From a virus, in the IMG/VR virus record IMGVR_UViG_3300012582_000011, positions 1 to 20,545 of that record: DNA of 20,545 nucleotides; one strand, given 5' to 3'. Positions 3,044 through 17,598 of this stretch are shown in pieces; position 1 is the first letter of the stretch, and every line of letters begins with the position of its first letter. The position numbers and the translations under genes are program-made. The notes below the pieces were generated by a model, which was given only the letters and a program-made list of their open reading frames with translations, searched no databases and was not told the DNA's origin.

Positions 3044-4069
3044 TTACGTACTCAATATCTTGATCCCCATACGAGGCGCTAAATTCTCTAGCTGCCATGT
3101 AAGGAACATCTGCGAAGTTAGTACGTCTTGATTAGTGGGACGCAGCCAAGGCGTTAAGCGGAAGTATGATCCTGGATGGAACACAGGATGCATATACTTC
3201 GTGTTAATAATGTAGTAGACCTGGGCCGCGATAAACGGGTCATCCAGCACCACTGCATTGTTGAATAAGAAGTGATAACGGAAGCCAGCCTGGATCGCCT
3301 CTCGGTCCTGCATGTTGTCGCCGTAACGGGCGAAGTACGAGGTCCCAGCGCCCATAAACTGCGCCTTGAAGTTCACGTAACGGGTCCGGTCGCCAAGGAT
3401 CAGATCCGGCTCGTCGTAGCCTAGCTTAACGGTCGCATAGGCAGTGTCCATGATGATGCCGGTAATCGCGGTCGCGGTAGTCGACTGCGGAGTTGGCGGC
3501 TGCCAGAAAGCATTCGCGGCAACCGAGCGATCGATACCAGCGATCGTGTTCACAGCGATCGTTGCGGTCGTAGGAGTGGCAGGAGTACCCGCACCGATCC
3601 ACGATTCGATGTCGTCGATATCATTGGCTGTGTTCTGTGGAGTCGTATGCCACAATGCCCGAGAAAGCTTCTGCAGGAAGGATGAGGAGGCAGCCTCCAC
3701 CTTCATCTGGATGATGTCAAGACCGGACCCGGCGTTGCGAATCACGTCCGTCACCGGAATCGAGATCGCCTCGTAGTAGTCGCGCCAGACCTGGTTCGCC
3801 GGCTGGATCGAGTCTGTGACAGTCGTATTCAGAAGCTGTGCCCCGACGTAAGCACCACCGGTTAACTCCTCCACAAACAAGAGAGGATAAATCAGCTCAC
3901 CACCCTTAAACACCTTACCCTTGCGGCAAAGTGCCCAGAAGGTTGAGGAAGGCAGCATCACGTTGTCGGCGAGTACTGGCTCAATAGCCTTCTGGGTAAT
4001 CGCCTGCATGGTGTTGGCTAGAACTGCCGGGGGTGCGTTTATCCCAGTTCCGAATACGCCGCCTGCCAT
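3044..4069 (-). CDS. Major capsid protein (HK97-fold-like)
   Basis: 341 residues with AAGGAG 7 bases before the ATG. Position (after a scaffold-like gene), length and composition fit a tailed-phage coat protein. Features include an N-terminal region with TMQAITQKAIEPVLADNV and a long helix-like stretch, LDIIQMKVEAASSSFLQKLS (about 119-138), resembling the spine helix. The middle is Thr/Ala-rich (PATPTTATIAVNTIAG), and a later segment has DLILGDRTRYVNFK and FNNAVVLDDPFI, typical of the A-domain of coat proteins. It should assemble around the scaffold into a procapsid and be filled by the terminase. The sub-family cannot be named by eye; HK97-fold is inferred. Confidence 0.8.
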   Translation of the reverse strand: MAGGVFGTGINAPPAVLANTMQAITQKAIEPVLADNVMLPSSTFWALCRKGKVFKGGELIYPLLFVEELTGGAYVGAQLLNTTVTDSIQPANQVWRDYYEAISIPVTDVIRNAGSGLDIIQMKVEAASSSFLQKLSRALWHTTPQNTANDIDDIESWIGAGTPATPTTATIAVNTIAGIDRSVAANAFWQPPTPQSTTATAITGIIMDTAYATVKLGYDEPDLILGDRTRYVNFKAQFMGAGTSYFARYGDNMQDREAIQAGFRYHFLFNNAVVLDDPFIAAQVYYIINTKYMHPVFHPGSYFRLTPWLRPTNQDVLTSQMFLTWQLENLAPRMGIKILST

Positions 4070-4087: not shown

Positions 4088-4882
4088 TTAAGCCTGCCCT
4101 GTCAGGTTGTAAATCTGGCTCAAAAACTCTGGATCTTCCTTTAGACGATTAAACGATTCACGCAGATTCTTAGGTGCATTGGGATCAGCAACTGGAGCAG
4201 CTCCGACTGGCATACCAGATGGACGGGCCAACGAAGAAGACAGGAGGTCCTGTCGTGCCTTGTCATAGGCTTCTTTCTTAATCGCTTCATCCGCAGCCTT
4301 ACGCTCGCGAGGAGACTTCCACTCGTCATAGACCTTACGCACGTCAGGCACACCACCTGAGTCCAGGTAACGCTTCTCAGCGGCAGTTTTCACCGCAGCG
4401 TCGTAACCTACTTCCTTGCGAAAATCCTCTGGCGTCATCTGGTAACGCTGCTCAGAGACTACATCTGTGATGTATTTGACCCCTAGGCCGAGAGCCTTCT
4501 GCACCTGCACATAGTTGTCGGAGAGCTTCTTGATCTCGGACATGACAGCGGATTCGAGGTACTCGGCAACGGGTTGGAAGAAGGGGTCCTTGCGCCAGTC
4601 GGTGCCAGTAGTAGTGGGAGTCATAACAGTGTTTTGCTTGTTCTTCGCTGCCTCAAGCGCGGTCCAAATATTCACCACTTCTTCCTGCGCGGCAGCCAAC
4701 TTCTTCTGTTCTTCAGCCATCTTGGCACGCTCAGCTTCCAGCTGCTTAGCTACATCCTGTCCACTAGCTTCCTGGAAGGCACGGAGTTCCCCAAGTGTAG
4801 TCTCGAAGCCATTCTGAGCAGTAAACTTGGTATCGTCGGAGAAGTTCTTACGATCCTTGACCGCCTCAGCAAGCGTTACCAT
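4088..4882 (-). CDS. Capsid scaffolding protein (putative)
   Basis: 264 residues; AGGAGG lies before the ATG. Residues about 40-80 form a charged, Ala/Glu/Lys-rich coiled coil (DVAKQLEAERAKMAEEQKK). A Thr-rich linker (TPTTTGTDW) follows, then further charged helices, a Pro/Ala-rich stretch (RPSGMPVGAAPVADPNAP) and a short C-terminal helical tail (LKEDPEFLSQIYNLTG) that could contact coat protein. High helical charge, no Cys, and location immediately before the major capsid gene are the usual signs of a scaffold. No protease motif is visible, so scaffold processing cannot be inferred. The function rests on position and composition. Confidence 0.65.
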   Translation of the reverse strand: MVTLAEAVKDRKNFSDDTKFTAQNGFETTLGELRAFQEASGQDVAKQLEAERAKMAEEQKKLAAAQEEVVNIWTALEAAKNKQNTVMTPTTTGTDWRKDPFFQPVAEYLESAVMSEIKKLSDNYVQVQKALGLGVKYITDVVSEQRYQMTPEDFRKEVGYDAAVKTAAEKRYLDSGGVPDVRKVYDEWKSPRERKAADEAIKKEAYDKARQDLLSSSLARPSGMPVGAAPVADPNAPKNLRESFNRLKEDPEFLSQIYNLTGQA

Positions 4883-4883
4883 A

Positions 4884-5336
4884 CTACCCTCCTAGTTGCG
4901 GTCCACCGGGTTGCGGCCCAAACGGAGTAGCTCCGCTCGAAGGCTGTTGTTGTGCTGATTGCAAGCCTAGTGGAGGATGAACATTCTTTAAAGTGTCTTG
5001 AGCCTTCTCGAAGGCCTTGATTGCTGCATTCAATCCAGTGACTGCCTGAGAGATTCCCTTGGCTGCATCAGCTACCCGATTGACCGCCACCGGAAAGATT
5101 GCAGAAATGGCCTGCTTATACTTCTGCAGATCAGCCACGATCTTCCCAGGGTCGGCATTCTGAAGCTGGGAATATTCTTGGGAAACAGCAGCACCAATAG
5201 CCTCAGGATTTACTCCACCTGCAGGAGATCCAGGCGCAGAAGATGGAGGTCCACCGCCACCAGGCGCACCACCACCTCCACCAATCTTTGACATTAGGGC
5301 AGGCAGAAGCATGGCGGCAATTGGTGAGGAAGACAC
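4884..5336 (-). CDS. Gly/Pro-rich protein with helical core, unknown
   Basis: 150 residues starting at a GTG 3 bases after the stop of the previous gene, so initiation is probably coupled. No strong Shine-Dalgarno site is seen. Residues 18-42 are almost pure Gly, Pro, Ala and Ser. Residues about 45-115 are an amphipathic helical region (AVSQEYSQLQNADPGKIVADL; ISQAVTGLNAAIKAFEKAQD). The tail is again Gly/Pro/Gln-rich, ending GPQLGG, and its stop lies 1 base before the scaffold ATG. The flexible-helical-flexible layout and its place before the scaffold suggest a minor head protein or assembly chaperone, but no family is recognised. Confidence 0.65.
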   Translation of the reverse strand: MSSSPIAAMLLPALMSKIGGGGGAPGGGGPPSSAPGSPAGGVNPEAIGAAVSQEYSQLQNADPGKIVADLQKYKQAISAIFPVAVNRVADAAKGISQAVTGLNAAIKAFEKAQDTLKNVHPPLGLQSAQQQPSSGATPFGPQPGGPQLGG

Positions 5337-5339
5337 GAG

Positions 5340-5519
5340 TTACTTGGTACCCTTCTTGGTGCCGGGCTTAGTCGGATCGTCTAGAAAGCCCATAGCGTCA
5401 TCCGGCTTAATTTGCGGACTATTCATAATCGCAGGACCAGGATCAGCCTTACCTGGATCAGCATTAAGTGGTGATACTAAAGCTGAGTTCTTGAAGGTAT
5501 TCCCCATCTTATCAACCAT
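5340..5519 (-). CDS. Small Asp/Lys/Pro-rich protein, unknown
   Basis: 59 residues. The ATG at 5519 is chosen because a perfect AGGAGG lies 6 bases before it. The frame is open further upstream (to 5648), but that part overlaps another gene and has an unlikely composition. The protein reads MVDKMGNTFKNSALVSPLNA and then a Pro/Asp-rich body ending in TKPGTKKGTK. It has no predicted fold and is likely disordered. It sits in the chain of small genes between portal and scaffold. Confidence 0.6.
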   Translation of the reverse strand: MVDKMGNTFKNSALVSPLNADPGKADPGPAIMNSPQIKPDDAMGFLDDPTKPGTKKGTK

Positions 5520-5529
5520 CTGTATCCTC

Positions 5530-5790
5530 CTACTTCTTCCGCTGTGAGCGGTGATATTCCAGTACACCACCGGTACGGTCCTGCGCGGTCGGCGGCACCA
5601 TGTCGTCGTTCGATGGAAGAGGGTCGTCATCACGCGCCCACTCATCACGGTTGTGCACAGTATCGATACCAGCAGTCTGCGGGCCGACGAGGACCGAGTC
5701 GCGCCATTTGTCGGCGGTACGGTCGCGGGTCGGGTGGCCGGTATTCTGCGGGAGAGTTTCGGGTTCGCGGCGGTCGCGTCGGTCGGCCAC
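5530..5790 (-). CDS. Arg/Asp-rich disordered protein, unknown
   Basis: 86 residues from a GTG 2 bases after the stop of the preceding small gene. Only a distant GGGAG is available for ribosome binding, so re-initiation is likely. The protein alternates Arg and Asp/Glu (ADRRDRREPETLPQNTGHPT; DEWARDDDPLPSNDD) with no hydrophobic core and ends HRSQRKK. The DNA here is visibly more GC-rich than the flanks. Several open frames on the opposite strand are a by-product of that GC content. I do not recognise it. A small head-associated, nucleic-acid- or coat-binding protein is a guess. Confidence 0.5.
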   Translation of the reverse strand: MADRRDRREPETLPQNTGHPTRDRTADKWRDSVLVGPQTAGIDTVHNRDEWARDDDPLPSNDDMVPPTAQDRTGGVLEYHRSQRKK

Positions 5791-5792
5791 GG

Positions 5793-5921
5793 CTAGTAGC
5801 GGCTCCCACGCTTGTGCGACTTCCGAGTGGAGCGCCGTTCAGATTTCTTTGACGCAGATCGCTTCAACTTAGTGAAGCCCGGCTGGCCCTGCGAGACTGG
5901 CTTCATACGTGGATCTTTCAT
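5793..5921 (-). CDS. 42-residue highly basic protein
   Basis: AGGAG lies a few bases before the ATG at 5921. The frame extends further upstream, but this start has the clear ribosome-binding site. Residues 1-20 are MKDPRMKPVSQGQPGFTKLK. The rest is dominated by Lys, Arg and Ser (KRSASKKSERRSTRKSHKRG) and ends SRY. It has no acidic stretch and no hydrophobic segment. A nucleic-acid-binding or capsid-lumen role is inferred from the charge alone. It follows a 13-residue basic peptide gene, and both share the SHKR ending theme. Confidence 0.6.
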   Translation of the reverse strand: MKDPRMKPVSQGQPGFTKLKRSASKKSERRSTRKSHKRGSRY

Positions 5922-5953
5922 AGTGCTCCTATTATATGGAGACGTGAAGGAGA

Positions 5954-5983
5954 GGCGGCTAGCTTCGCGACAAGTCAGCCGCC
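5954..5983 (-). other. Hairpin between two basic-peptide genes
   Basis: GGCGGCT (5954-5960) and AGCCGCC (5977-5983) form a perfect 7-bp GC-rich stem with a 16-base loop. No T-run follows on the minus strand, so it is not a canonical terminator. It could stabilise or process the late mRNA. Confidence 0.4.
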
Positions 5984-6002
5984 CCAATGAGCCGCTGTCT
6001 GA

Positions 6003-6044
6003 TTAACGCTTATGAGATTTCTTGCGTCCGCGTCGACGAGCCAT
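6003..6044 (-). CDS. 13-residue Arg/Lys peptide
   Basis: An ATG at 6044 encodes MARRRGRKKSHKR followed by TAA. AAGGAGG sits about 6 bases upstream, one of the best ribosome-binding sites in the window, which is the main reason to call such a short frame. Nine of 13 residues are Arg, Lys or His. It could bind nucleic acid (packaged DNA or late mRNA) or the acidic inner capsid surface. Alternatively it is a translated leader for the next gene. The shared SHKR ending with the 42-residue protein downstream hints at relatedness. Confidence 0.5.
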   Translation of the reverse strand: MARRRGRKKSHKR

Positions 6045-6060
6045 AGAGGGCCTCCTTCCC

Positions 6061-6081
6061 GCGTCACAAATGTGTGGCGCT
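6061..6081 (-). other. Hairpin just upstream of the 13-residue peptide gene
   Basis: GCGTCAC and GTGGCGC form a 7-bp stem with one wobble around a 6-base loop. It lies directly upstream of the AAGGAGG site on the minus strand and may influence access to it. Confidence 0.3.
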
Positions 6082-6115
6082 CAAATCACATCGCTCTGAA
6101 TCTAGCGAGAGAGCT

Positions 6116-6373
6116 TTACCGAGGTGACGCAGGTGGTACACCAGGCCGACAAGGACCATTTTGGGTTAGTAAGCAGGAAGCTGATTCGTAAAGCAGTTCC
6201 TCATAGGCTGGGGTTCCATCGCCAGTGTCAGCAATCTTGGACTTGTGGAGATCAAACATAGTCGCCACTTGACCGTCAATCGCAAGCTGGACGCCTAGCC
6301 GCCAGTCTTCCCAGTCTGTACCTTGTCGTAGTATTTCTACCTTGTGTCCGCGTACGACCATCTCAGAGGACAC
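6116..6373 (-). CDS. Small conserved-looking phage protein, unknown
   Basis: 85 residues from a GTG at 6373, or 81 from the ATG at 6361; neither has a strong Shine-Dalgarno site, and an in-frame TAG lies shortly upstream. The sequence has a globular look: VVRGHKVEILRQGTDWEDWR, then LGVQLAIDGQVATMFDLHKS, then an acidic helical part (PAYEELLYESASCLL) and a Pro-rich tail. The family is not recognised. It lies between the HTH protein and the basic peptides, in the portal-scaffold interval. Confidence 0.6.
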   Translation of the reverse strand: MSSEMVVRGHKVEILRQGTDWEDWRLGVQLAIDGQVATMFDLHKSKIADTGDGTPAYEELLYESASCLLTQNGPCRPGVPPASPR

Positions 6374-6431
6374 CGTAGCAGGGATTTTCTATAGGATGGA
6401 TAAACCTTCGCGTAGATCGCGTTCGTCGCGT

Positions 6432-6650
6432 TTACTCAGGAATTCGGATCCACCAACGGCCCATGGGATCCTGATAGGTAGCTACCTGAAAAACAATGAT
6501 CTCACCATCACGGCACATCTCTTGAATGCGACGTACAGATCTACGATATAAGGCAGCAAACTCTTTGACTGATACCCAACGAGCAGATGGGTCTAATACC
6601 CAAGGTGGTAGTGCAGTAGTCGTTATCTGGGATGGGATAGTAGTGTTCAC
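6432..6650 (-). CDS. Small MerR/excisionase-like helix-turn-helix protein
   Basis: 72 residues from a GTG at 6650 that overlaps the portal stop codon by one base (TAGTG). After a flexible N-terminus, residues about 25-72 read WVSVKEFAALYRRSVRRIQE, MCRDGEIIVFQV, then GRWWIRIPE. This is the pattern of the small winged HTH fold shared by MerR-type and excisionase-type proteins: a VxEFAALYxxSxRxIQ helix-turn-helix, a (R/K)xGxI turn, then a wing ending W.IP. It probably binds DNA. A longer upstream reading of this frame lies inside the portal gene and is rejected. A DNA-binding protein here is unusual; it could control late genes or assist packaging. Confidence 0.7.
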   Translation of the reverse strand: MNTTIPSQITTTALPPWVLDPSARWVSVKEFAALYRRSVRRIQEMCRDGEIIVFQVATYQDPMGRWWIRIPE

Positions 6651-8368
6651 TACTTTACCGTACGACCTTTCTTGACAGTGGAGAGTACACGAAGAGCAGT
6701 TTCCTGATCTGCCTTCTCTGCGATTTCCTTTGCACCAGGCCAACCCAAAGTAGAGAGCAACGTTTCTGTATCAATTTTGCCTGCCTGGTTCAAGGCTAAC
6801 GCTGTCTTACGTAGATTCTTTGCACTCATGACTTCTAGTGATCCCGGATCAACCATGATATTCCAAGAGGAATAATCAGAGACTGGTTGCCATTCAGACA
6901 TGGCGAATTCACCCTCGTCCATAGTGGGGAAACGTAAGCCACGACGCTCACCGAAGAATTTAGCCAACAAGTAGAAGACTAGCTCGGCTGCCTTCTGAGT
7001 AGAACGAGCAGACATTCGCGCACGAAGTTTAGTAAGCTTCGAAGACTCCTCAATAGCGGATTCATAGAGTTCAACAGAGAGATTACCAGCACCTGGCTGG
7101 CCGCCACGGGCACCTGAATAGCCTTGGAGTTCGGCTTGGGTTGTAAGCGCATATTTGATGTACTCCAGGTAGGACGCAGGGAACGCATTTGGGGAGACAA
7201 ACTTGGGTTCCCCATGATTCATGTTAACGACTTGAATCTCTCCCGGGAGCCCCCCAAACTTATCAGCATCGAGACCGCTCCCGTCGGGTAATAGCCAAAT
7301 GCCATTATTGCAACGGTATGCGTTTTCAAAGGCTTGCGTAAGAGAACGCTCAGCAAACTCCTGTAGAGTTCGCGTATAGCGAATCGGAGGAGGAGCCCAA
7401 AATCCCTCCAGCTTAGGCAGGCCCCAGTAGGGGATAAAAGGGAACTTCCGGTGGGGTGTGGGGTTATCGCCATCGTAGAGGACGTAGCCGTCACCATCAA
7501 TTGTAAGCCGGCCATTTGGGAACCTCAGCTTGAACTTGGATGGTGTGAGAAACTTGTCAGCAGACTTGGAGCCAGCAGCTTCCTTCACCTTCTCTGGTGT
7601 AGGGTCTAATGTGTAGCAAAAACGTACATTGACCAGACCAGAGGTAGGAACTCCCCGGGTAGCAGGTGAGCCACCCTGTGAGGTCATTGGGCCGAACGGC
7701 ATTGACATGGACGGGACAGTTCCACCGACAGGATTACGGGCAGATGGACGGGTAGGAACACGCCAGCCAGTATCTGGCCATCGACGGCGGACTGCATCAA
7801 GCGTCATTGACCGGGTCCATACAACGTATTCCCAAGAGTCGTCGAGAGCTGTTGGGTCTGGATCAAAGTCATCTGGATCGATCGCATCCAACCAGACGGA
7901 GCCGCGCCCGTTGTAGGCGAAGGGATCGATACCAGCAGCGAGAATTCCAGTACCACCAAAGTTTGCCCACAGTTGGGCCATCATGATGGAAAGGGAATAC
8001 CATTCCTGCTTCCAGATGCCACGAAAGATACGCTCCCGTTCTACGTCACGCTTGCCATCTTCACCGGTTAGGTAGATAACTGGAACGTTATCAGAAAGTT
8101 CAGCAGTCTCAGACAGCATAAACATCTGTAGCTGGGGAATGTCGACACGAGGACGGAACACCAGCGGGCCAGTACCTTGAGAAGTATCTAAACTGTAGAA
8201 GTCCTTGACGTTCTTAAACCAGTCAGCACCCAAGATGTCACGCTTGGCGTCTTTGGCTATACGCTGAAGAAGATCGATCTGCTGGATGATTGTGGGACGC
8301 TCGTCTGAGCCAGATGGATTCGCAGTTCGAGACCACGAAGGACCGGTCATCACAGCAGTAGCACTCAT
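6650..8368 (-). CDS. Portal protein
   Basis: 572 residues with GGAG 8 bases before the ATG. The start overlaps the previous stop as ATGA. The protein forms the 12-fold DNA channel at one capsid vertex. Supporting features are the length, the place after the large terminase and before the scaffold, and an N-terminal helical part (PTIIQQIDLLQRIAKDAKRD). The segment around residues 130-200 (WANFGGTGILAAGIDPFAYN, then WLDAIDPDDFDPDPTALDDS and DAVRRRWPDTGW) is typical of portals. A region around 330-420 has TRTLQEFAERSLTQAFENAY. The C-terminus is a helical barrel-like segment ending KKGRTVK. The portal sub-family is not assigned. Confidence 0.85.
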   Translation of the reverse strand: MSATAVMTGPSWSRTANPSGSDERPTIIQQIDLLQRIAKDAKRDILGADWFKNVKDFYSLDTSQGTGPLVFRPRVDIPQLQMFMLSETAELSDNVPVIYLTGEDGKRDVERERIFRGIWKQEWYSLSIMMAQLWANFGGTGILAAGIDPFAYNGRGSVWLDAIDPDDFDPDPTALDDSWEYVVWTRSMTLDAVRRRWPDTGWRVPTRPSARNPVGGTVPSMSMPFGPMTSQGGSPATRGVPTSGLVNVRFCYTLDPTPEKVKEAAGSKSADKFLTPSKFKLRFPNGRLTIDGDGYVLYDGDNPTPHRKFPFIPYWGLPKLEGFWAPPPIRYTRTLQEFAERSLTQAFENAYRCNNGIWLLPDGSGLDADKFGGLPGEIQVVNMNHGEPKFVSPNAFPASYLEYIKYALTTQAELQGYSGARGGQPGAGNLSVELYESAIEESSKLTKLRARMSARSTQKAAELVFYLLAKFFGERRGLRFPTMDEGEFAMSEWQPVSDYSSWNIMVDPGSLEVMSAKNLRKTALALNQAGKIDTETLLSTLGWPGAKEIAEKADQETALRVLSTVKKGRTVK

Positions 8369-8646
8369 TGCTTCAGCTCCGGTGCTGCGCTACTACCCTT
8401 GCCACTCAACCATTCTTCCAAATATTCAGCTGGAGACTTGCCAGCTTCTCCCTGCTGGCCCTTAAGCATATCCTCAATATTGGCTTCAGCTGCAATCAAA
8501 TCCTTAAGGGATACTGCGGAGGGGCATAGCGTCCCAGCATTCTCTGCGAGAGCTGTCTGCAGAAACATCCAGGCAGCTACCTTCTCTTTCTTGCGGCGTT
8601 GCGAGAACTCAGTGAATATGCCAGTGAGGACCTGCTGCGGGCTCAC
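8365..8646 (-). CDS. Small helical protein between terminase and portal, unknown
   Basis: 93 residues. The GTG at 8646 overlaps the preceding stop as GTGA, with GGAAG about 11 bases upstream. Upstream codons in this frame overlap the neighbouring gene and are Ser/Arg-rich, so they are rejected. The protein is helical: MSPQQVLTGIFTEFSQRRKK, then EKVAAWMFLQTALAEN, then SLKDLIAAEANIEDMLKGQQ. Its stop overlaps the portal ATG. The family is not recognised; a portal-associated or head-completion role is a positional guess. Confidence 0.65.
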   Translation of the reverse strand: MSPQQVLTGIFTEFSQRRKKEKVAAWMFLQTALAENAGTLCPSAVSLKDLIAAEANIEDMLKGQQGEAGKSPAEYLEEWLSGKGSSAAPELKQ

Positions 8647-9068
8647 ACTGACTGATCTTCCGGAGGCGGCATCCCGGCTACCGCTGCTGATCCCGACTCC
8701 CTCCACTGACGGAGTTGATCCTGCTGGACGCGTTTGGCCATCCGTTCGATGATCTGATCCTCGGTCATTACGCGGTGCTTGGAAGGATCGGGGGAAGCTA
8801 AGGGCTGTGCGGTCGGGGCTGTCGTTGTCCATCCGGAACCTCTGACCTCAGCTACAACGAGAGAAGGGGAGCCTGAGCGGATAACCGCTTGCTGATTCGG
8901 GACATCCCAGTCAATTAGAACTTTACCACCAGAATCCAATTTCTCCAAGGATTGTGCGGAGATACGGAGTTCTCCACCGGCTTGATCAACGAGGGCAAGA
9001 AGCAACAGTGTCAAGTAGCTCTCCCGCGATAACGCCCCTTGGGTACGTGGGAAGGAATTCATAATCAT
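8643..9068 (-). CDS. Unknown phage protein downstream of the large terminase
   Basis: 141 residues. The ATG at 9068 overlaps the terminase stop (ATGA), with GAGG 8 bases upstream; a second ATG two codons later is an alternative start. The N-terminal half looks folded: ESYLTLLLLALVDQAGGELR, then ISAQSLEKLDSGGKVLIDWD, then a short beta segment with QAVIRSGSPSLVVAEV. The C-terminal half is a Pro/Ser linker and a charged helix (TEDQIIERMAKRVQQDQLRQ). The function is unknown. Tight coupling to terminase and portal genes suggests a packaging or head-assembly accessory. Confidence 0.65.
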   Translation of the reverse strand: MIMNSFPRTQGALSRESYLTLLLLALVDQAGGELRISAQSLEKLDSGGKVLIDWDVPNQQAVIRSGSPSLVVAEVRGSGWTTTAPTAQPLASPDPSKHRVMTEDQIIERMAKRVQQDQLRQWRESGSAAVAGMPPPEDQSV

Positions 9069-10873
9069 CGCCAGCCTCGCTTCTTCTGCTCCTCTTCCTG
9101 GTCGTAGCGGTCCTTATCGCGGAGGAGCTGCTTGTAGACTGCAGCGGTTACATTGCCGATATGCTCAAATGAAATCTGTGGGTTGAGCTTGGCTAACGCA
9201 CGAGAGTCCTGGTCAGCGTCAGTCGATAGGGAAGAGGTAGCACCTTCAAGTTTACGGGGATGCCATTCACTACGAGCGATATTCGCCAGCATGTAGGCCA
9301 TAAGAACATCGTCGTGACCAAAGGCAATCTCCCAGCGCTCCCAGGAGTCCTTGCGGGTTGCTACGTCCATCTGCCGAACGACTTCCTCGTCGCGGACAGT
9401 ACACATGCGGTGGAGAATGGATTCACGGAAGGTGATTAGCAGTCTCTCCCGGGAACGGTACGTTGTTTCCCAGCCGTAGGTACCGCCACGTTTGCCGGAG
9501 GTGAGACCAGGCGAGACTTTATCGTCGCGTGTACCACGCCACTTATATAGATTGGGGTAGTGGAAATAGTCACGCAGACGCATCTGACACCACAATCCAA
9601 GGTTGCCGGTAAGTTCAATACATAGCATCCCTCGGTTATAGTAGTGTCCAATGTAGTGACAGAGTCGAGCGAGATATTCGGGATCAACTCTTTGAGCATA
9701 TCTAAGAACTTGGTTGCCTGACTCTCCGTCAATTCCAACGATTGCGGCGAAGTCTCCTTCATCTTTTCCTCGTGCGGCATCTACGCCAAAGTAGTAACGG
9801 TGATCCTTGATAGGTGGCTCCCACTGGAAGACCGGAGAGACATCGTTCGGCTTGCAGTACACGTGTCGCGAGTCGCCGCTGACTTCCCCCGCGATCTCGA
9901 CTCGCTTATAAGACAGGATCGAGTTGCGGGCGATCGACATTTCCTCGCGCGTGAAGGCCGGCTCACCGGTTGAGATAAAGGCCACGTCGGGCGTTACAGG
10001 ATATGCCTGATCGAAGATTTCTACGTAGCCACGGCAGGCCGGAGAGTCAATCGTCATGCGCCGCCAAGCGATTTGCGGGAGCGTAGCCTTGACCAGTTTC
10101 CCGTCGATGTTGACTCCCTCATTTAGGAGTAGCTTCTCGTCATCGTCCTTAGGCGCATCGAGCACAGGATGATCATAGTCGACACAGGTCGGATCCATCA
10201 GCCAGGAAAGGAAAATAGGTATGAATTCAGTATCGCCGCGCACTGAGGCGTTCCAGAAGCTATAGAAAACTTCCCCAATACCAGTACGTCCATTAGCGGT
10301 AGTCTCTAGTAATATAATTGTATCTGAATATCGCGGAACTGTCGGCAACAATGCAGCAAAGGTTCCCTCGCCCGGATAAAACGCACATTCACTGCAGTGA
10401 AGATCAGTTAAGCTAACCCCCCTCCCCCCTTCTACGTTACCTGCTGTAGCAATTGATAAGTAGCTGTCCCCATCCTTATGAGGAAATGTAATTTTGTGTT
10501 GTGTCATTGCGGAAAGTCCAAGTACTGACTTAAGCGTCTTTTGTCCAGACAGCGACTCAACAACAAGCGTCCTAGGAGTTTTAAAGAGTTCCTTACTACT
10601 CTTAAAATCGTGTGTTGTTATAAGACTATTAACTCCTGACTTAGAAGCGCCGTGAACCGCAAGCAGTGCATCTGTGTAGGTAGAGATGCCCTGACGGCGA
10701 GCCTTAAGTACTACGGCCCGCATGGGCTTATTCCTTTCATGTTGCCCGCGAAGCGCCTTATGAACCTTTATCTGAGATGGATTAAATATAAAGGGAATAA
10801 GGCGTTGGGTAAGCTTGTCACGAATTGGAAGATGGCCCAGGAAATCTTCAGCCCGCGTTAGACTAAAACTCAT
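9065..10873 (-). CDS. terL: Terminase large subunit
   Basis: 602 residues from the ATG at 10873, which overlaps the HNH gene stop as ATGA with GGCAGG upstream. A start 17 codons earlier lies inside the HNH gene and is less likely. This is the packaging motor. The ATPase part has a Walker-A-like LKARRQGIS (residues 56-64), a Walker-B region SLTDLHCSE (154-162, with SE in place of DE, as in many phage terminases) and the coupling motif LLETTANG (188-195). The nuclease part shows the RNase-H-like acidic residues in FGVDAARGKDEGDF (D365), MLCIELTGN (E420) and FGHDDVLMAY (D521/D522). The C-terminus is a charged tail. It is expected to act with the portal at 6650-8368. Confidence 0.93.
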   Translation of the reverse strand: MSFSLTRAEDFLGHLPIRDKLTQRLIPFIFNPSQIKVHKALRGQHERNKPMRAVVLKARRQGISTYTDALLAVHGASKSGVNSLITTHDFKSSKELFKTPRTLVVESLSGQKTLKSVLGLSAMTQHKITFPHKDGDSYLSIATAGNVEGGRGVSLTDLHCSECAFYPGEGTFAALLPTVPRYSDTIILLETTANGRTGIGEVFYSFWNASVRGDTEFIPIFLSWLMDPTCVDYDHPVLDAPKDDDEKLLLNEGVNIDGKLVKATLPQIAWRRMTIDSPACRGYVEIFDQAYPVTPDVAFISTGEPAFTREEMSIARNSILSYKRVEIAGEVSGDSRHVYCKPNDVSPVFQWEPPIKDHRYYFGVDAARGKDEGDFAAIVGIDGESGNQVLRYAQRVDPEYLARLCHYIGHYYNRGMLCIELTGNLGLWCQMRLRDYFHYPNLYKWRGTRDDKVSPGLTSGKRGGTYGWETTYRSRERLLITFRESILHRMCTVRDEEVVRQMDVATRKDSWERWEIAFGHDDVLMAYMLANIARSEWHPRKLEGATSSLSTDADQDSRALAKLNPQISFEHIGNVTAAVYKQLLRDKDRYDQEEEQKKRGWR

Positions 10874-11376
10874 GAAGACCTGCCTGTTAACAGCAGCCGA
10901 CGTTTCCTGTATTGAGAGCGGCAACTAGGATGATAGGCCATTCCAGTATTAAGAAATTTCATCAGTTTCAGATCGCTATACTGCTTGCAGAAGGCACAGC
11001 GACGCCAGTTAGGATTCCCACAGGCATCTCGCGCTCTCATACGTTGATGCAGAAGCATATGATACGCACGGTCCTCACACACTACTAGGTTCTCAACTCG
11101 ATTATCAGAGGGATCACCATTAACATGATGGATTTCTGCTTGCGAAGGTAACTTCATACCGAGTATGCGCTCGACTATTTCGACATGCTCACGATGGTCA
11201 ACGCCATTCTTACGGAAGATCCTATAACCATTATGGCTTATGGTTCCTTCCCCTACTTTAGCTCGCAACAGCATTGTAGGATCACCATGCCTTAGCCAGC
11301 GGCGATAATGAAGGAAACACCAGCTCCGTCCATAATGAGGACTTCCACATCCTTCAACAGAACAGAGATGAGTCAC
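10870..11376 (-). CDS. HNH endonuclease with zinc-finger flanks
   Basis: 168 residues from the GTG at 11376, which overlaps the upstream stop (GTGA) and follows AAGGAG at 8 bases. Upstream codons in the frame lie in the neighbouring gene. An N-terminal zinc-binding module (C5, C10, C20, H23) precedes the HNH core: HREHVEIVERILG, EIHHVNGDPSDNRVENLVV (H83-H84, N86, D88, N92, N96) and H106/H110. A second Cys cluster (C127, C130 and a later HPSC) ends the protein. This arrangement is common in free-standing phage homing endonucleases. Some phages instead use an HNH protein next to terminase for DNA packaging. Position between a putative small terminase and the large one leaves both open. Confidence 0.88.
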   Translation of the reverse strand: MTHLCSVEGCGSPHYGRSWCFLHYRRWLRHGDPTMLLRAKVGEGTISHNGYRIFRKNGVDHREHVEIVERILGMKLPSQAEIHHVNGDPSDNRVENLVVCEDRAYHMLLHQRMRARDACGNPNWRRCAFCKQYSDLKLMKFLNTGMAYHPSCRSQYRKRRLLLTGRSS

Positions 11377-11924
11377 GCCCGATTCTCCTTCTTTTCCCGA
11401 GGCGTCTGACGGGCATGGCTGGGCATATTGCGAGCTAGTAAGCAGTTCTGTGAGCAATAAAATGAATTACGTGGCATATGGAATTCGTCACGTTCCGTAA
11501 GGATCTGAAAGCCACCCGCCTTGGAAATGTCGATCATACGACCACAGGTCTTGCAGGGTGCCCGGGAGGTACCAGCTTCTAGTTGCTCCTGCTTTTGACG
11601 ACGGGCTAGAGCTACTGCTGTGGAACAAGCTGAGAGTGCATTGAGTAGGAGTCCACAGTCTGAGTAAGCTACTGATTCCAAGGGGACTGATTCCAGTTGA
11701 TGAATCAATTCAGAGACTGAAATCACTGGTGCTGGAATAGGCTTGGAAACAATCTTGGGCTTAGCTACTTTCTTGTCAGCAATTACTGGTGGAAGAACAT
11801 CGGTAGCAATAGGATTCAGCGCAGCAGCTACTTCTCCATTTTTAGCAGCCTTCCGGGCAGCATGTACTTCACGCATTCTAGCACCCAGTGCAGCACGGGC
11901 TTCAGGGGTCCATTGACGGGGCAT
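11373..11924 (-). CDS. Zinc-ribbon protein in small-terminase position
   Basis: 183 residues with AAAGGAG 7 bases before the ATG. The N-terminus (PRQWTPEARAALGARMREVH) is a basic helix resembling DNA-binding segments seen in phage proteins. A Pro/Lys/Val-rich linker follows, then a helical middle (LLLNALSACSTAVALARRQK). A zinc site is formed by CKTCG (about 123-127) and a downstream FYCSQNC (about 154-160). The gene precedes HNH and terminase genes with an overlapping stop/start. A small terminase is possible from position, but no recognisable TerS fold is visible. A zinc-finger regulator is equally plausible. Confidence 0.6.
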   Translation of the reverse strand: MPRQWTPEARAALGARMREVHAARKAAKNGEVAAALNPIATDVLPPVIADKKVAKPKIVSKPIPAPVISVSELIHQLESVPLESVAYSDCGLLLNALSACSTAVALARRQKQEQLEAGTSRAPCKTCGRMIDISKAGGFQILTERDEFHMPRNSFYCSQNCLLARNMPSHARQTPREKKENRA

Positions 11925-11936
11925 AATAATACTCCT

Positions 11937-12146
11937 TTAGTTACTAATAATAGGCCGTGCAGGTACAATGCGAGATTCAGAAGGTGGTTCTTGAGTGGTG
12001 AGAAAACAAACCGTTCCACACTTACGGCAGTAAACTTCGGTGATGTCGGTAGTCATAATAGACGAACCATGGCTGGAGTTTTCCTGCTTCTTTGGCACGA
12101 AGTCATGCTGGTCAGGCTTACACACGGTACGAGTAGTAGTGGTCAT
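11937..12146 (-). CDS. 69-residue zinc-ribbon-like protein
   Basis: AGGAG lies 7 bases before the ATG at 12146, which overlaps the previous stop as ATGA. The protein has CKPDQHDF (C9, H14) and a CRKCG knuckle (about 40-44) followed by another Cys. One zinc ion could be held by these residues. The N-terminus is Thr-rich and the C-terminus Pro/Ser-rich. The function is unknown. It is part of the run of small Cys proteins upstream of the terminase genes. Confidence 0.65.
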   Translation of the reverse strand: MTTTTRTVCKPDQHDFVPKKQENSSHGSSIMTTDITEVYCRKCGTVCFLTTQEPPSESRIVPARPIISN

Positions 12147-12406
12147 TGTTTAACTCCTAACTTAGACGAGAATGAAAACTCAGGACGCGATTCCAAATAG
12201 CGCTGCCGCTTGCGTTCCTGCTCAACTGAATTATCGTAGGTATGGTACATGGAGGCAGCACGTTGGGAAGGCTTGGTAACAGCTCTGGTGCACCCGCAGC
12301 CATGAGCAAAAAACCAAAATTGGTCGTTCTCGTTAAGAAGAAACATACGCTTATCAGATGAGGGACAAGATCCCCAATGACAATTAGGTGCTTCTAGACG
12401 TTTCAC
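12143..12406 (-). CDS. 87-residue Cys-rich protein, unknown
   Basis: GTG start at 12406 with AAGGAG 7 bases upstream. Residues 9-40 contain CHWGSC and FFAHGCGC, a likely zinc or metal site. The C-terminal half is charged and helical (DNSVEQERKRQRYLESRPEF). The family is not recognised. It lies 15 bases after the GT-A gene and overlaps the next small gene by 4 bases, so it is co-transcribed and translationally coupled. Confidence 0.65.
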   Translation of the reverse strand: MKRLEAPNCHWGSCPSSDKRMFLLNENDQFWFFAHGCGCTRAVTKPSQRAASMYHTYDNSVEQERKRQRYLESRPEFSFSSKLGVKQ

Positions 12407-12421
12407 GATACATCTCCTTCA

Positions 12422-13237
12422 TCACTTCACCTCTGCGAATGCAGCTTCATAAGCTGCATCCATCACTTCCAGACTCCCAGTGTAGTCCATATGGCCAGAG
12501 TGGGTCAGCCGAATCCAAGGGGCTGCATAAAGTTTGAAGCCACACTGGCGGGCCAGTTCACAAAAGGCCCAGTCCTCGGAAAGGTATTGTCGACCACCAC
12601 TACCCAAGGGATAACGCACATCTGGGCCGGTGGGAAAGAAGTCGTAGCCGGTACGGCCCTGGAACAGGGGTTCATCAGAGGACTGATCGTAGGTGATGCC
12701 ATCACCCAACTTGGTGATCATAGTTGTAAAGACTTCTCGATGGATACGCAAGAAACCAGTACCTAGATGACGGACCTCGATCAAGGAATCAAGGGAGAAA
12801 TCTCCGGGAGTAGACCAGTTCAGGACTGGGATGAAGCCGTAGTGAGGCAGCTGATCAGGTGGTATACCGGATTTAGCAGCAGCGGCAATGCGGTTCCAGT
12901 CAAGCTGTTTACGGGGATATATTCCTCCGACAATTGGCTCGGGACAGGAGATCAGAGAAAGTGCGTCTTCACTAGTAAAGGAGATATCAGCATCAACGAA
13001 TAGTAGATCAGTGGCTTGGGAATCGAGGAAGTGGGCTACTAGGCGGTTGCGGGCGCGCGGGACCAGGGAATCACAACCCACGTATTTCTGGCCAATGGAC
13101 ATGCCAGACTTTAGACAGGAAATAGTGAGATTCAGCACGGACTGGTGAAATCCAAATAGAAGTGAATTTCCGTAGAGAGGAGCTGCCAGGAAGATACGAC
13201 GCTGGCGAAGCTTAGGCCAGTCAATGGGAGGCCTCAT
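12422..13237 (-). CDS. GT-A-like glycosyltransferase
   Basis: 271 residues; ATG with GAGG 7 bases upstream, overlapping the previous stop as ATGA. The N-terminal Rossmann-like part (RIFLAAPLYG) leads to VPRARNRLVAHFL and the metal-binding LLFVDADISF (DAD at 82-84), the DxD motif of GT-A enzymes that holds the nucleotide-sugar. GTGFLRIHREVF (159-170), YLSEDWAFCELARQCG (218-233) and LTHSGH (244-249) match the acceptor, catalytic and late His features of this group. The enzyme should transfer a sugar from a nucleotide donor in the cytoplasm. It is the last gene of a three-gene sugar cassette. Acceptor unknown: virion protein, phage DNA or host glycan. Confidence 0.82.
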   Translation of the reverse strand: MRPPIDWPKLRQRRIFLAAPLYGNSLLFGFHQSVLNLTISCLKSGMSIGQKYVGCDSLVPRARNRLVAHFLDSQATDLLFVDADISFTSEDALSLISCPEPIVGGIYPRKQLDWNRIAAAAKSGIPPDQLPHYGFIPVLNWSTPGDFSLDSLIEVRHLGTGFLRIHREVFTTMITKLGDGITYDQSSDEPLFQGRTGYDFFPTGPDVRYPLGSGGRQYLSEDWAFCELARQCGFKLYAAPWIRLTHSGHMDYTGSLEVMDAAYEAAFAEVK

Positions 13238-14130
13238 GCGGCTACCTCAGAGGCTGCACGTTGCTGTGTTTCAATCACGTATTGAGCCAGACGTTCTGTG
13301 GTGGAGTGACAGACAAACTTAATATGAAGCCGGCGATGCAGGGAAAGCCATATGGAATGTCCCTCTGGAGTATCCCAGAAAAGACCATCGCGATCTGCAT
13401 ATTGCATGGCTTCCAGTAGCTCACCCTTAGGAAGCTGCATACAAGTAGTCGCTGGGCATTGCTCAAGATCCAGAAATAACGGAATACAGCCGTTAGCCAT
13501 AATCTCATAGTGACGTAGACAATCCCAGCCACCCTTACGCATAGTGAAGGCAAACAGAGATCGAGCATAGTCGTGGTAGTAGTCTGCTTCTGTGGTGAAA
13601 GTATAGGTAGAACGGTCGCGGGGATCGCAGTGCGCCCGGACTCGGTCTTTCGCTACCTGACGCTGAGTTGAGATCTTTGAAGCTGGAATTGCGAAATGGA
13701 TGGGATGGATCTTGGCCATGGGCTCGGCTAATTCACGCTTGAAATAGATTCCGTGGCGGGTTAGGTTGTACATCAGATGAGATTGGTCTTCACCGTCGAT
13801 TAACAGAATCTCATGAGGAGCGTAGGTGCGGCAGACTAGATCGAAGTAGGACTGGTCACGGTGGATGGAACCGTAGATGATCAGATCGAAGGCATGGTCC
13901 ATGATGCGTTGCTTGAGGTTGGAACGATCAACCGGGATCTCAGGAAGTAAACGGGAGAGAGTGAAGCCCTGGCCGTAGAGTTGGGATGAATCTCCGGAGT
14001 AGTCTTGGTACATATGATCAAGACGGGGAGAGTCAATAATGCTGGGACCATAGAGTGTACGTAAGCCATGAAAGAGGCAATCACACTGATAATCCATGCG
14101 CATTGCGGGAGATAAGAATAGAATATTCAT
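13234..14130 (-). CDS. GT-B-like glycosyltransferase (exostosin-like C-terminus)
   Basis: 298 residues. The ATG overlaps the preceding stop (ATGA), with AGGAAG 8 bases upstream. It starts as a Rossmann-type domain (MNILFLSPAMRMDYQCDCLF) and has a mid segment FDLIIYGSIHRDQSYFDLV. The C-terminal nucleotide-sugar-binding region, MRKGGWDCLRHYEI then MANGCIPLFLD (198-221), is the best marker: the R-x-YEIMAxGCIPL pattern is shared by GT-B and exostosin-type enzymes. Some N-terminal sugar-binding loops appear short, so it may act with a partner. It sits between a glycosyltransferase-methyltransferase fusion and a GT-A enzyme, overlapping both by 4 bases. The three are probably translated together and may build one glycan. 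Confidence 0.78.
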   Translation of the reverse strand: MNILFLSPAMRMDYQCDCLFHGLRTLYGPSIIDSPRLDHMYQDYSGDSSQLYGQGFTLSRLLPEIPVDRSNLKQRIMDHAFDLIIYGSIHRDQSYFDLVCRTYAPHEILLIDGEDQSHLMYNLTRHGIYFKRELAEPMAKIHPIHFAIPASKISTQRQVAKDRVRAHCDPRDRSTYTFTTEADYYHDYARSLFAFTMRKGGWDCLRHYEIMANGCIPLFLDLEQCPATTCMQLPKGELLEAMQYADRDGLFWDTPEGHSIWLSLHRRLHIKFVCHSTTERLAQYVIETQQRAASEVAA

Positions 14131-15515
14131 TCCGGCTTCCTCATGACGCCCATACCATAACGGCCCGGGAGTTCGTAGTGAGTAATATCTGGATGGGAGG
14201 AACAGAACTTATAGAACTCTTCCTTGATACCAACTGAGTAGAATTCATGGCCACGCTCGGGGCGGATGTCGTGGGTTATGATTAACCCACCAGGGCGGAC
14301 CCAGTGATAGCAATTGTAGAGATCGCCAATATAGGCATCCCGTTTATGGTCTCCGTCAATGAGGGCTATATCGAAAGAAGAGTCTGGGAAGTGAGTGGTC
14401 AGAGAATTGGAACGGTGGAAGGTCCACTGGGGATGAGTCCAAAGACCAGAGCAGTCGTCAATATCAATCGAAGTCAGCCGGCCAGTAGGATCGTTTTCTT
14501 CTAGGCCCAATAGGAATGCACTAGTTGAGGCTCCATCCCGGGTGCCAATCTCTAAGATCTGTCCCTTGGCATGTTCTCGTAGCCAGGGCAGGAAGTCAAC
14601 CATGTCGCCCTCGCGACAGCCCAGCTCGTAGCGGGAACGGATTAGTATAGGAGTCTGGGGAGCAGGAAAGAAAGTATTAGCTGTATCCAATACAGCTTCT
14701 ACTGATTCAGTGAAATCCATACGAGAGATGGAGTATAGGGCAGACTGCTCTAGGTTCTCACGAGTCACTATGGGATTATCAGAGACCAAATCCATGCAAG
14801 CATCTACCATTTCTAACAGAGAACACCAACGAATCGTTTCTAGCAGCCAGGCATAGTCATTCATGTCAGAGGATTGCTCACTGACTACACACTTGGAGTT
14901 AGCTAATAGGAAGCTTACCCTGGCAATATTGAAGAGATCACGACCGTCGTGGTTGATGTTGAGTACCAGCTTAGATCGGGAGATAAGCTGATCACGGCCA
15001 CCTCCATAGCAGGAATCTGTGGCGACTACGTTGAGGCCAGTAGCACGTAGTTCTTGGATCATCTTTGACCGGCGAGGAGTAAGCCAGCCATAGAATAGGC
15101 AATCAATGTCTTGGATTGGGGCTTTGGGAATCCGAGTAAGATTAGGGGTATAGCCAATGGGAAGGTGTTGGGCTGGGATTCCATGGGATTGCCATTGCTC
15201 TACGTTGTGGGAGTTGTAATCCCAGACGCGGCAAGACGATTGCTTGACTATTTTTTGTACGTTGTCAATGGAGGGATGAGTGGGTTGTTCTAAATTATAG
15301 ACTATGGAATTAGAGGGAAGGATAGTGGTGGGTGGCAGTAGTTCTGCACCGAAGATGATGTTAGTGGACTGGCCTGCTGAGAAGGAATTATCCGTGCACA
15401 TGGTTTCGTGGTCTAGGGCTGATAAAGACCATGCCAGGGAATCCCGGATCTCTAGGAAGGCCTGGGAATGGAGGAAGCCCTTGGGGGAGATACGGGTAAG
15501 GTTATACTTAGCCAT
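14127..15515 (-). CDS. Glycosyltransferase-methyltransferase fusion
   Basis: 462 residues. The first ~285 residues look like a GT-B fold: IIFGAELLPPTTILPSNSIV, then IDCLFYGWLTPRRSKMIQEL (138-157) and a C-terminal sugar-nucleotide region LVLNINHDGRDLFNIARVSF with LLANSKCVVSE (183-213). Residues ~300-462 are a class I SAM methyltransferase: motif I LEIGTRDGAS (321-330), acidic LTSIDIDD (347-354), DIALIDGDHKRDAY (382-395) and VRPGGLIITHDI (406-417), closest to the family with an IDGDH motif. One polypeptide could therefore add a sugar and methylate it or a neighbour. The ribosome-binding site is weak, and the start overlaps the end of the RHH gene by 8 bases, so translation is probably coupled. 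Confidence 0.8.
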   Translation of the reverse strand: MAKYNLTRISPKGFLHSQAFLEIRDSLAWSLSALDHETMCTDNSFSAGQSTNIIFGAELLPPTTILPSNSIVYNLEQPTHPSIDNVQKIVKQSSCRVWDYNSHNVEQWQSHGIPAQHLPIGYTPNLTRIPKAPIQDIDCLFYGWLTPRRSKMIQELRATGLNVVATDSCYGGGRDQLISRSKLVLNINHDGRDLFNIARVSFLLANSKCVVSEQSSDMNDYAWLLETIRWCSLLEMVDACMDLVSDNPIVTRENLEQSALYSISRMDFTESVEAVLDTANTFFPAPQTPILIRSRYELGCREGDMVDFLPWLREHAKGQILEIGTRDGASTSAFLLGLEENDPTGRLTSIDIDDCSGLWTHPQWTFHRSNSLTTHFPDSSFDIALIDGDHKRDAYIGDLYNCYHWVRPGGLIITHDIRPERGHEFYSVGIKEEFYKFCSSHPDITHYELPGRYGMGVMRKPE

Positions 15516-16503: not shown

Positions 16504-16609
16504 GAACGGTTAGCAAGTGGCCTGAGTGGCGTACCGTTCCAAGGCGGGTTAGATCCGCGTGATCCTAGACTTAGGGTGTGACACCCTAGACTTGCAATCC
16601 AATGCAAGT
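16504..16609 (+). other. Structured 5' leader of four consecutive hairpins
   Basis: Downstream of the promoter, four stems follow one another: GAACGGT/ACCGTTC (16504-16539, 22-base loop), GCGGGT/ATCCGC (16544-16558, one wobble, loop TAG), TAGGGTG/CACCCTA (16572-16588, loop TGA) and ACTTGCA/TGCAAGT (16590-16609, loop ATCCAA). Parts such as GTGGCCTGAGTGGC and AAGGC recall the D-arm of leucine or serine tRNAs, but no acceptor and T-arm fit, so it is not called as a tRNA. It may be a regulatory leader or a small RNA. Confidence 0.45.
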
Positions 16610-16660
16610 TACCGGACTAGCCAAACGATAGCGGGCATAAATTCAATTCGGAGCACTACA

Positions 16661-17548
16661 ATGGCGAAAACAATGAAACAAGCAATCGGTGAGGCCATGG
16701 CTGCTAAGACTCTGGAAATGAGCCCAGCAACCAAGCCATCCGAAGCTTTAAAAGTGGCTGCCAAAGAAGCGAAAGACAAAGTAGTCCAGATATTCACTCC
16801 GTCCCAAGTCATCGGGACCTTTGCTGAGAATCTGGCTCCTGATACCAGCAAAAAGCTTAAGAGTCTCTACGATAATCTCTTGAGTGAATTTGCTTCTGAA
16901 GCACAATCCCGCATTGAGATAGGAACCACACTGGTCTCTATCCGGGAATTGCTGGGAGAGAACTTTGGGAAATTTCTGGCAGACTGTGTCCAGAAAACCC
17001 TTCGTAAGTCACTCTCAACCTGCTACAGCTACATTGCCTTGTCTCAGGCATTTAACCTCAAGTTTGCCCGTAACAAGGTAGTCAAAGTGGCCCTGTCCCG
17101 CATCTGGGGCGCTGAGGGCTGCTTTGATACCGTCAATGGCGAACTAAAACCAGCCGTTGACGAAGCAATTGGCGCAAGTGGCGGAATCCCTGAAAGCACT
17201 GATTCCTTGACTTGTGAGACATGGGCCAGAAAGTTTGTGGCCAACGTCGATAAGCTGGTTGCCAGTAGCAGGGAAGCCCAACCCGGCGGTCGCAAGTGGG
17301 ATGCTGAGACCATTACCAAGAAACAAGTGGGAGTGGTCAAGGGATTCCGAAGCTTTATCACAAACAAGAGTGTTTCCTCGAACCGTGCCATCAAGTTGCT
17401 TACCAGCATCTTGGTAGAAGCAATGGTCGAAATGAGCGCATCCGACATCAAGCAAGCCATGTCCGATGCTACGGTACAAATTTCCAACCGTAAGCTCGAA
17501 GTCAAGAAAGCCCATGAAGATGTAGTTGCTACTGAAGCAACTGCATAA
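16661..17548 (+). CDS. 295-residue unknown protein, first rightward gene
   Basis: ATG at 16661 chosen because CGGAG lies about 7 bases upstream; an upstream extension of the frame runs through the structured leader and is rejected. The N-terminus is Ala/Lys-rich (MAKTMKQAIGEAMAAKTLEM). The centre, SRIEIGTTLVSIRELLGENF then GKFLADCVQKTLRKSLSTCY and SYIALSQAF (about 100-150), resembles the pattern of DUF3102-like phage and plasmid proteins, which combine a helical segment with an HTH-like region. The C-terminus is helical and charged. It has its own promoter and terminator, so it is expressed as a single unit, perhaps abundantly and early. A DNA-binding or replication-control role is inferred only weakly. 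Confidence 0.75.
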   Translation: MAKTMKQAIGEAMAAKTLEMSPATKPSEALKVAAKEAKDKVVQIFTPSQVIGTFAENLAPDTSKKLKSLYDNLLSEFASEAQSRIEIGTTLVSIRELLGENFGKFLADCVQKTLRKSLSTCYSYIALSQAFNLKFARNKVVKVALSRIWGAEGCFDTVNGELKPAVDEAIGASGGIPESTDSLTCETWARKFVANVDKLVASSREAQPGGRKWDAETITKKQVGVVKGFRSFITNKSVSSNRAIKLLTSILVEAMVEMSASDIKQAMSDATVQISNRKLEVKKAHEDVVATEATA

Positions 17549-17563
17549 CCCGTAACTCAATCA

Positions 17564-17598
17564 CCCTACTAGGTTTAACCGCCTAGTAGGGTATTTTT
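17564..17598 (+). terminator. Strong factor-independent terminator
   Basis: CCCTACTAGG (17564-17573) and CCTAGTAGGG (17582-17591) form a perfect 10-bp stem with an 8-base loop, followed by TATTTTT. It closes the 295-residue gene 15 bases after its stop. Confidence 0.92.

Follow-up and report, generated by a model that had tools for sequence, protein, structure and literature searches.

Some viruses carry enzymes for building or modifying glycans. In the chlorovirus PBCV-1, protein A064R carries a methyltransferase fused to glycosyltransferase (GT) domains. It builds the end of the glycan on the major capsid protein and O-methylates it, acting with a further sugar methyltransferase, A061L (PMC9614988). 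Glycans on the capsid and tail-tube subunits of Mycobacterium phages have been linked to phage glycosyltransferases (Freeman 2023, as cited in PMC12619734). Phages whose DNA bears glycosylated bases are also well known (e.g. PMC12838424).

Here we describe a three-gene cassette in a 20545-base IMG/VR virus record (the window), which is probably a fragment of a viral genome. The best explanation, in our judgement narrowly probable, is that its products build and O-methylate a short glycan on virion proteins, in the cytoplasm and late in infection.

Organization of the cassette and neighboring genes

The three genes lie on the minus strand. GTMT (14127-15515; 462 aa) fuses an N-terminal GT-B-like domain to a C-terminal class I SAM O-methyltransferase. 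GTB (13234-14130; 298 aa) is a putative glycosyltransferase with a GT-B fold and a conserved GWDCxRH motif, and GTA (12422-13237; 271 aa) is a putative GT-A-like glycosyltransferase of phrog_1574, related to Anp1/GT62. A preliminary description had the three genes overlapping by 4 bases, and both junctions are indeed ATGA stop/start overlaps (14127-14130 for GTMT/GTB, 13234-13237 for GTB/GTA; both minus strand). From coordinates, the first recurs in L002, L007, L009, L031, and L054, and the second in L002, L007, L009, and L010.

A 15-base gap separates the cassette from three small Cys-rich ORFs downstream, all on the minus strand. The nearest (12143-12406) is kept in relatives and the next (11937-12146) in most of them. 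The third (11373-11924) is conserved, contains Cys pairs, and lies immediately before the HNH and terminase genes; it is a possible candidate for the small terminase. An HNH endonuclease (10870-11457), the terminase large subunit (9065-10924; phrog_2, 7.2e-22), the portal protein (6650-8368; phrog_156, 7.8e-10), and the major head protein (3044-4069; phrog_9953, 1.4e-19; 92-97% identity in close relatives) follow on the same strand, as expected from the earlier claim that the cassette is co-directional with terminase and capsid genes.

The window, L009, L010, and L012 have the HNH gene, whereas L006 and L007 lack it; because its presence varies among relatives, it is probably a homing-type insert. 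The listed terminase start is a TTG at 10924, and relatives align from about residue 18. The true start is probably the ATG at 10873, judging from this alignment, and would give a 4-base overlap with the HNH stop.

Promoter- and terminator-like sites in the window did not exceed those in shuffled sequences, and no convincing terminator breaks the run from the cassette to the head gene. A strong 12-pair terminator-like hairpin (17563-17592, plus strand) lies just past a divergent gene at 16559-17548. From the gene order, we infer that the trio would be expressed late.

Predicted identity of the three proteins

The C-terminus of GTMT matches Pfam Methyltransf_24 (1.1e-14; 55.6 bits against a cut-off of 26.3), and a seven-member profile matched PDB entry 6g7d (2e-6). 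In Foldseek searches, its AlphaFold model matched SafC and other SAM O-methyltransferases and, separately, the GT-B enzymes 8xsh and 4w6q, with GtfC among the GT-B matches. The model pTM was only 0.54, which may be expected if the two domains are loosely placed. The motifs LEIGxRDGAS and ALIDGDH..HDI are conserved, and the SAM motif is kept.

GTB had no match in the Pfam, PHROG, or NCBIfam family libraries, the NCBIfam search returning zero matches. Its AlphaFold model, built from nine sequences, reached a pLDDT of 77.7 and a pTM of 0.81. Against solved GT-B enzymes the best Foldseek match (E 1.2e-4, probability 1.00, TM about 0.5) supports assignment at the level of fold only; matches included methylmannose-polysaccharide mannosyltransferase, T4 α-glucosyltransferase (AGT), PimB', and BshA. 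The GWDCxRH motif is conserved across 21 diverse phage proteins.

GTA is a member of phrog_1574 (4.4e-33), and its relatives match Anp1 (GT62) and Glycos_transf_2. Anp1 matched 16 of the 22 members of the family alignment at E values up to 1 (best 5.3e-7), the window protein itself not among them. The DxD, SEDxxF, and C-terminal HxG motifs are invariant in all 22 sequences. Searches against PDB sequence profiles yielded no convincing match for GTA or GTB; a profile match to STIV A197 (E 0.28) was set aside as evidence.

By family, fold, and motif the three proteins are transferases, with predicted rather than demonstrated activity. The Pfam, PHROG, Foldseek, and motif evidence upholds the domain assignments first proposed for them (a GT-methyltransferase fusion, a GT-B-like and a GT-A-like enzyme). 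Profile searches, suggested at the same time as a check on each enzyme, placed GTMT in Methyltransf_24 and GTA in phrog_1574 and left GTB without a family.

No membrane helices were found in GTMT, GTB, or GTA (top 19-residue hydropathy, 1.2). That all three enzymes are predicted to be soluble would also suit the modification of a soluble substrate of host or phage origin (a protein of the host, a nucleotide, or a small metabolite), for example as a counter-defence. We regard this as decidedly unlikely, because three transferases with variable sugar-supply genes exceed the needs of a single inactivating tag, and such a target does not explain the constant linkage to virion genes documented below.

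Conservation and variation of the cassette

A scan with the terminase, made without reference to the cassette, retrieved ten loci on ten contigs. GTMT, GTB, and GTA occur in the same order upstream of the terminase large subunit gene (TerL) in all seven contigs that cover the region (L006, L007, L008, L009, L010 with a partial GTMT, L012, and L013); L011 begins inside GTA, and L005 and L014 stop short of the cassette. A GTB profile scan added the close contig L028 with the trio and six distant trio contigs (L032, L033, L066, L030, L031, and L054). As the distant loci were retrieved through GTB, their independent evidence is limited to the presence of GTMT and GTA. TerL of L032, L033, and L066 is 38% identical. 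In L030, L031, and L054 the trio lies directly upstream of probable virion genes, including a tail-fibre match (phrog_19966) in L031, and L031 and L054 carry a terminase of a different family (phrog_38) further downstream. Linkage of the trio to packaging and virion genes extends over three phage groups. It had been reasoned that finding the genes unlinked in related phages would tell against the cassette; linkage held in 7 of 7 relatives and in the six distant contigs.

Outside the trio-bearing groups, GTB occurs without GTA. A single-protein scan of viral contigs detected no GTMT relatives, which the terminase and profile scans later found; a profile scan of bacterial genomes detected none. 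For the close pair L007/L009, dN/dS was 0.07 for GTMT, 0.05 for GTB, and 0.09 for GTA, compared with 0.04 (portal) and 0.01 (capsid protein); we excluded pairs whose synonymous sites were saturated. The trio genes are under purifying selection and kept for function. Their grouping is not due to chance, since all seven terminase-retrieved relatives that cover the region share the gene order and the frames are under this selection.

Gene content inside the cassette varies. A nucleotide-sugar epimerase lies between GTMT and GTB in L013 and L028 (the L013 protein matched phrog_540 and Epimerase, 4e-51, in a scan; the L028 copy is a homologue by eye). An extra methyltransferase-like gene is present in the cassettes of L013 and L066, a phrog_1458 protein lies between GTB and GTA in L054, and L008 has an endonuclease VII-like ORF. 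The 4-base overlap is kept at several of these insertions: the L028 epimerase ends at 9639 and the next gene starts at 9636, and the inserted gene in L066 ends at 3234 with GTB starting at 3231. Judged by gene content, the cassette looks like a glycan locus whose product changes between relatives.

Sets of sugar epimerase, GT, and methyltransferase genes are typical of surface-glycan loci, and GTB has relatives in some bacterial genomes, mostly of Bacteroidota. On these grounds the enzymes could modify a glycan of the host surface in the course of infection, for example to prevent superinfection or to stop progeny from sticking to debris. We consider this unlikely. The trio proteins lack membrane helices, and the scan of the relatives G001 (52.7 kb) and G002 (54.0 kb) showed no Gtr-type flippase, membrane GT, polymerase, or acyltransferase family. 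Neither carries a recognised lysogeny gene, so that a lasting change to the host surface has no evident use. These records carry no completeness value; we take both genomes as near complete because they share their gene order from different starting points.

Candidate targets and comparison with known systems

GTB and GTA have relatives in several other settings. In T4-like contigs, GTB relatives belong to clusters of several GT genes, flanked by gp47- and gp46-like genes. Such clusters (L035-L071 and similar T4-like loci) hold up to six glycosyltransferase-like genes and a Methyltransf_24 gene, and they read as an unnamed glycan pathway inside the recombination module. In T4-like phages of Stenotrophomonas, Caulobacter, Sinorhizobium, and Ochrobactrum, GTA relatives adjoin genes for the sliding clamp and the polymerase; in the replication modules of other contigs they adjoin polymerase, helicase, and FkbM genes. 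In L112-L182, an Anp1-like GT is paired with an FkbM methyltransferase inside replication modules whose genes read as DNA polymerase, helicase, and nuclease. In cyanophage ACG-2014f, a GTA relative has tail-collar genes, a GT2, and an epimerase around it. As relatives occur both in replication modules and among tail-collar genes, the two families serve more than one setting; we rejected them as a general marker of virion glycosylation because of the former. Sugar-type methyltransferases are frequent neighbors: of 67 loci with GTB relatives, 30 have Methyltransf_24 at a distance of up to 4.5 kb, and of 72 loci with GTA relatives, 48 have FkbM within that distance. This pairing counts in favor of the proposed glycan pathway.

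The replication-module relatives, the T4 AGT among the GTB fold matches, and the precedent of phage DNA with glycosylated bases (PMC12838424) are all compatible with a DNA target. The transferases would then add sugar to a modified base in the phage DNA and the methyltransferase would cap it, protecting the DNA from restriction and Cas nucleases. Several results make this rather unlikely. The trio sits with packaging and virion genes rather than replication genes, and the structural matches of GTB are generic ones (E about 1e-4, TM about 0.5). T4-type DNA glycosylation requires a gene for synthesis of the acceptor base. PF00303 (thymidylate synthase/hydroxymethylase type), which was matched in control genomes, was absent from the window, from four relatives (G001, G002, G004, and G006), and from the six distant trio contigs, records that are possibly incomplete. 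A Pfam/PHROG scan of 51 proteins of G001, G002, and G006 found no base-modification families; it did find AAA ATPases, RusA, a PD-(D/E)XK nuclease, and an endolysin, with a DNA polymerase in G006. A search for PF12851 (Tet/JBP dioxygenase) gave no match, in control genomes as well. The near-complete genomes G001 and G002 (L015-L020) showed no recognizable DNA polymerase family, and the family A polymerase of G006 lies near the contig end.

The preliminary description had left virion protein, DNA, and host surface open as targets. Our analysis favors the virion, on gene location and precedent. The DNA is less likely because a base-modification gene was not found in the near-complete relatives, and the host surface because a flippase or membrane transferase was not found there either and the trio has no membrane helices. 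Under virion glycosylation, the trio would form one translationally coupled block at the start of an operon for packaging and morphogenesis. The three enzymes, soluble and cytoplasmic, would add sugars in turn from host nucleotide-sugars, in a presumed order, and the methyltransferase would O-methylate one sugar, probably the terminal one. Acceptors would most likely be capsid, decoration, or tail proteins from the same operon, yielding particles with a methyl-capped surface glycan. We recognized neither an obvious acceptor sequon nor an acceptor rich in Ser/Thr.

Runs of tail-region genes in the phage family of the window, and in the distant trio contig G018, start with Sec-signal-peptide-like N-termini (e.g. 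MKKLALLVALLLPSAAWAQ), which are conserved between relatives and odd for virion proteins. These runs are found at 3-2537 in the window, 4699-9339 and 3605-4690 in L016, 2016-6449 and 6450-7427 in L019, 11440-17453 in L219, and 5699-9921 in L220 (all minus strand), and at 605-3829 in L022 and 5374-6405 in L054 (plus strand). Because many tail-region proteins of trio lineages begin this way, we also raise the very improbable option that the cassette glycosylates tail proteins in the cytoplasm before Sec export, by analogy with accessory-Sec adhesins. The tail proteins of such a phage would then be secreted glycoproteins.

If virion glycosylation is correct, methyl-capped glycans would be a trait stably kept in an uncultured phage family, made by a linked three-enzyme unit common to phages with different packaging genes. 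It would also give likely functions to the GWDCxRH GT-B, Anp1-like GT-A, and GT-B/methyltransferase fusion families, whose function is now unassigned in hundreds of phage contigs, and provide a defined gene set for probing why phages coat themselves with sugar.

Among known systems, the gtr serotype-conversion loci of temperate phages are likewise three-gene phage sugar cassettes. They need a membrane flippase and membrane-bound transferases, whereas the trio proteins lack membrane helices and neither component was found in the trio or among the G001/G002 families. GTB shares the GT-B fold with AGT of the T4 α/β-glucosyltransferase system and has the T4-like relatives near gp47 and gp46 described above. 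The trio differs from that system in its three transferases and methyltransferase, in its position beside packaging genes, and in that no acceptor-base synthase gene was found in its relatives. By these features the cassette does not classify as a T4-type DNA glycosylation system, nor as a gtr cassette. The trio resembles the Mycobacterium phage enzymes, as reported in the source cited, in being phage-encoded glycosyltransferases with a virion context, although its glycan is a prediction, and GTMT and GTB gave no match to phage isolates by tblastn. Soluble predicted glycosyltransferases are retained alongside virion genes, one of the features expected of virion-glycosylating phages.

In function the cassette would be most like PBCV-1 A064R. 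PBCV-1 is a eukaryotic virus with a proven glycan and enzyme activities, whereas those of the trio are predicted. Its A064R has two GT domains, the first of a GT-A fold, whereas GTMT fuses a single GT-B-like domain and the two further GTs of the phage trio are separate genes. In domain make-up, A064R and GTMT are nevertheless alike, each a virus-encoded GT and SAM methyltransferase on one chain, and as A061L accompanies A064R, extra methyltransferases accompany the trio in L013 and L066. The cassette brings familiar types of enzyme together in a new arrangement, and it is real, conserved, and under selection.
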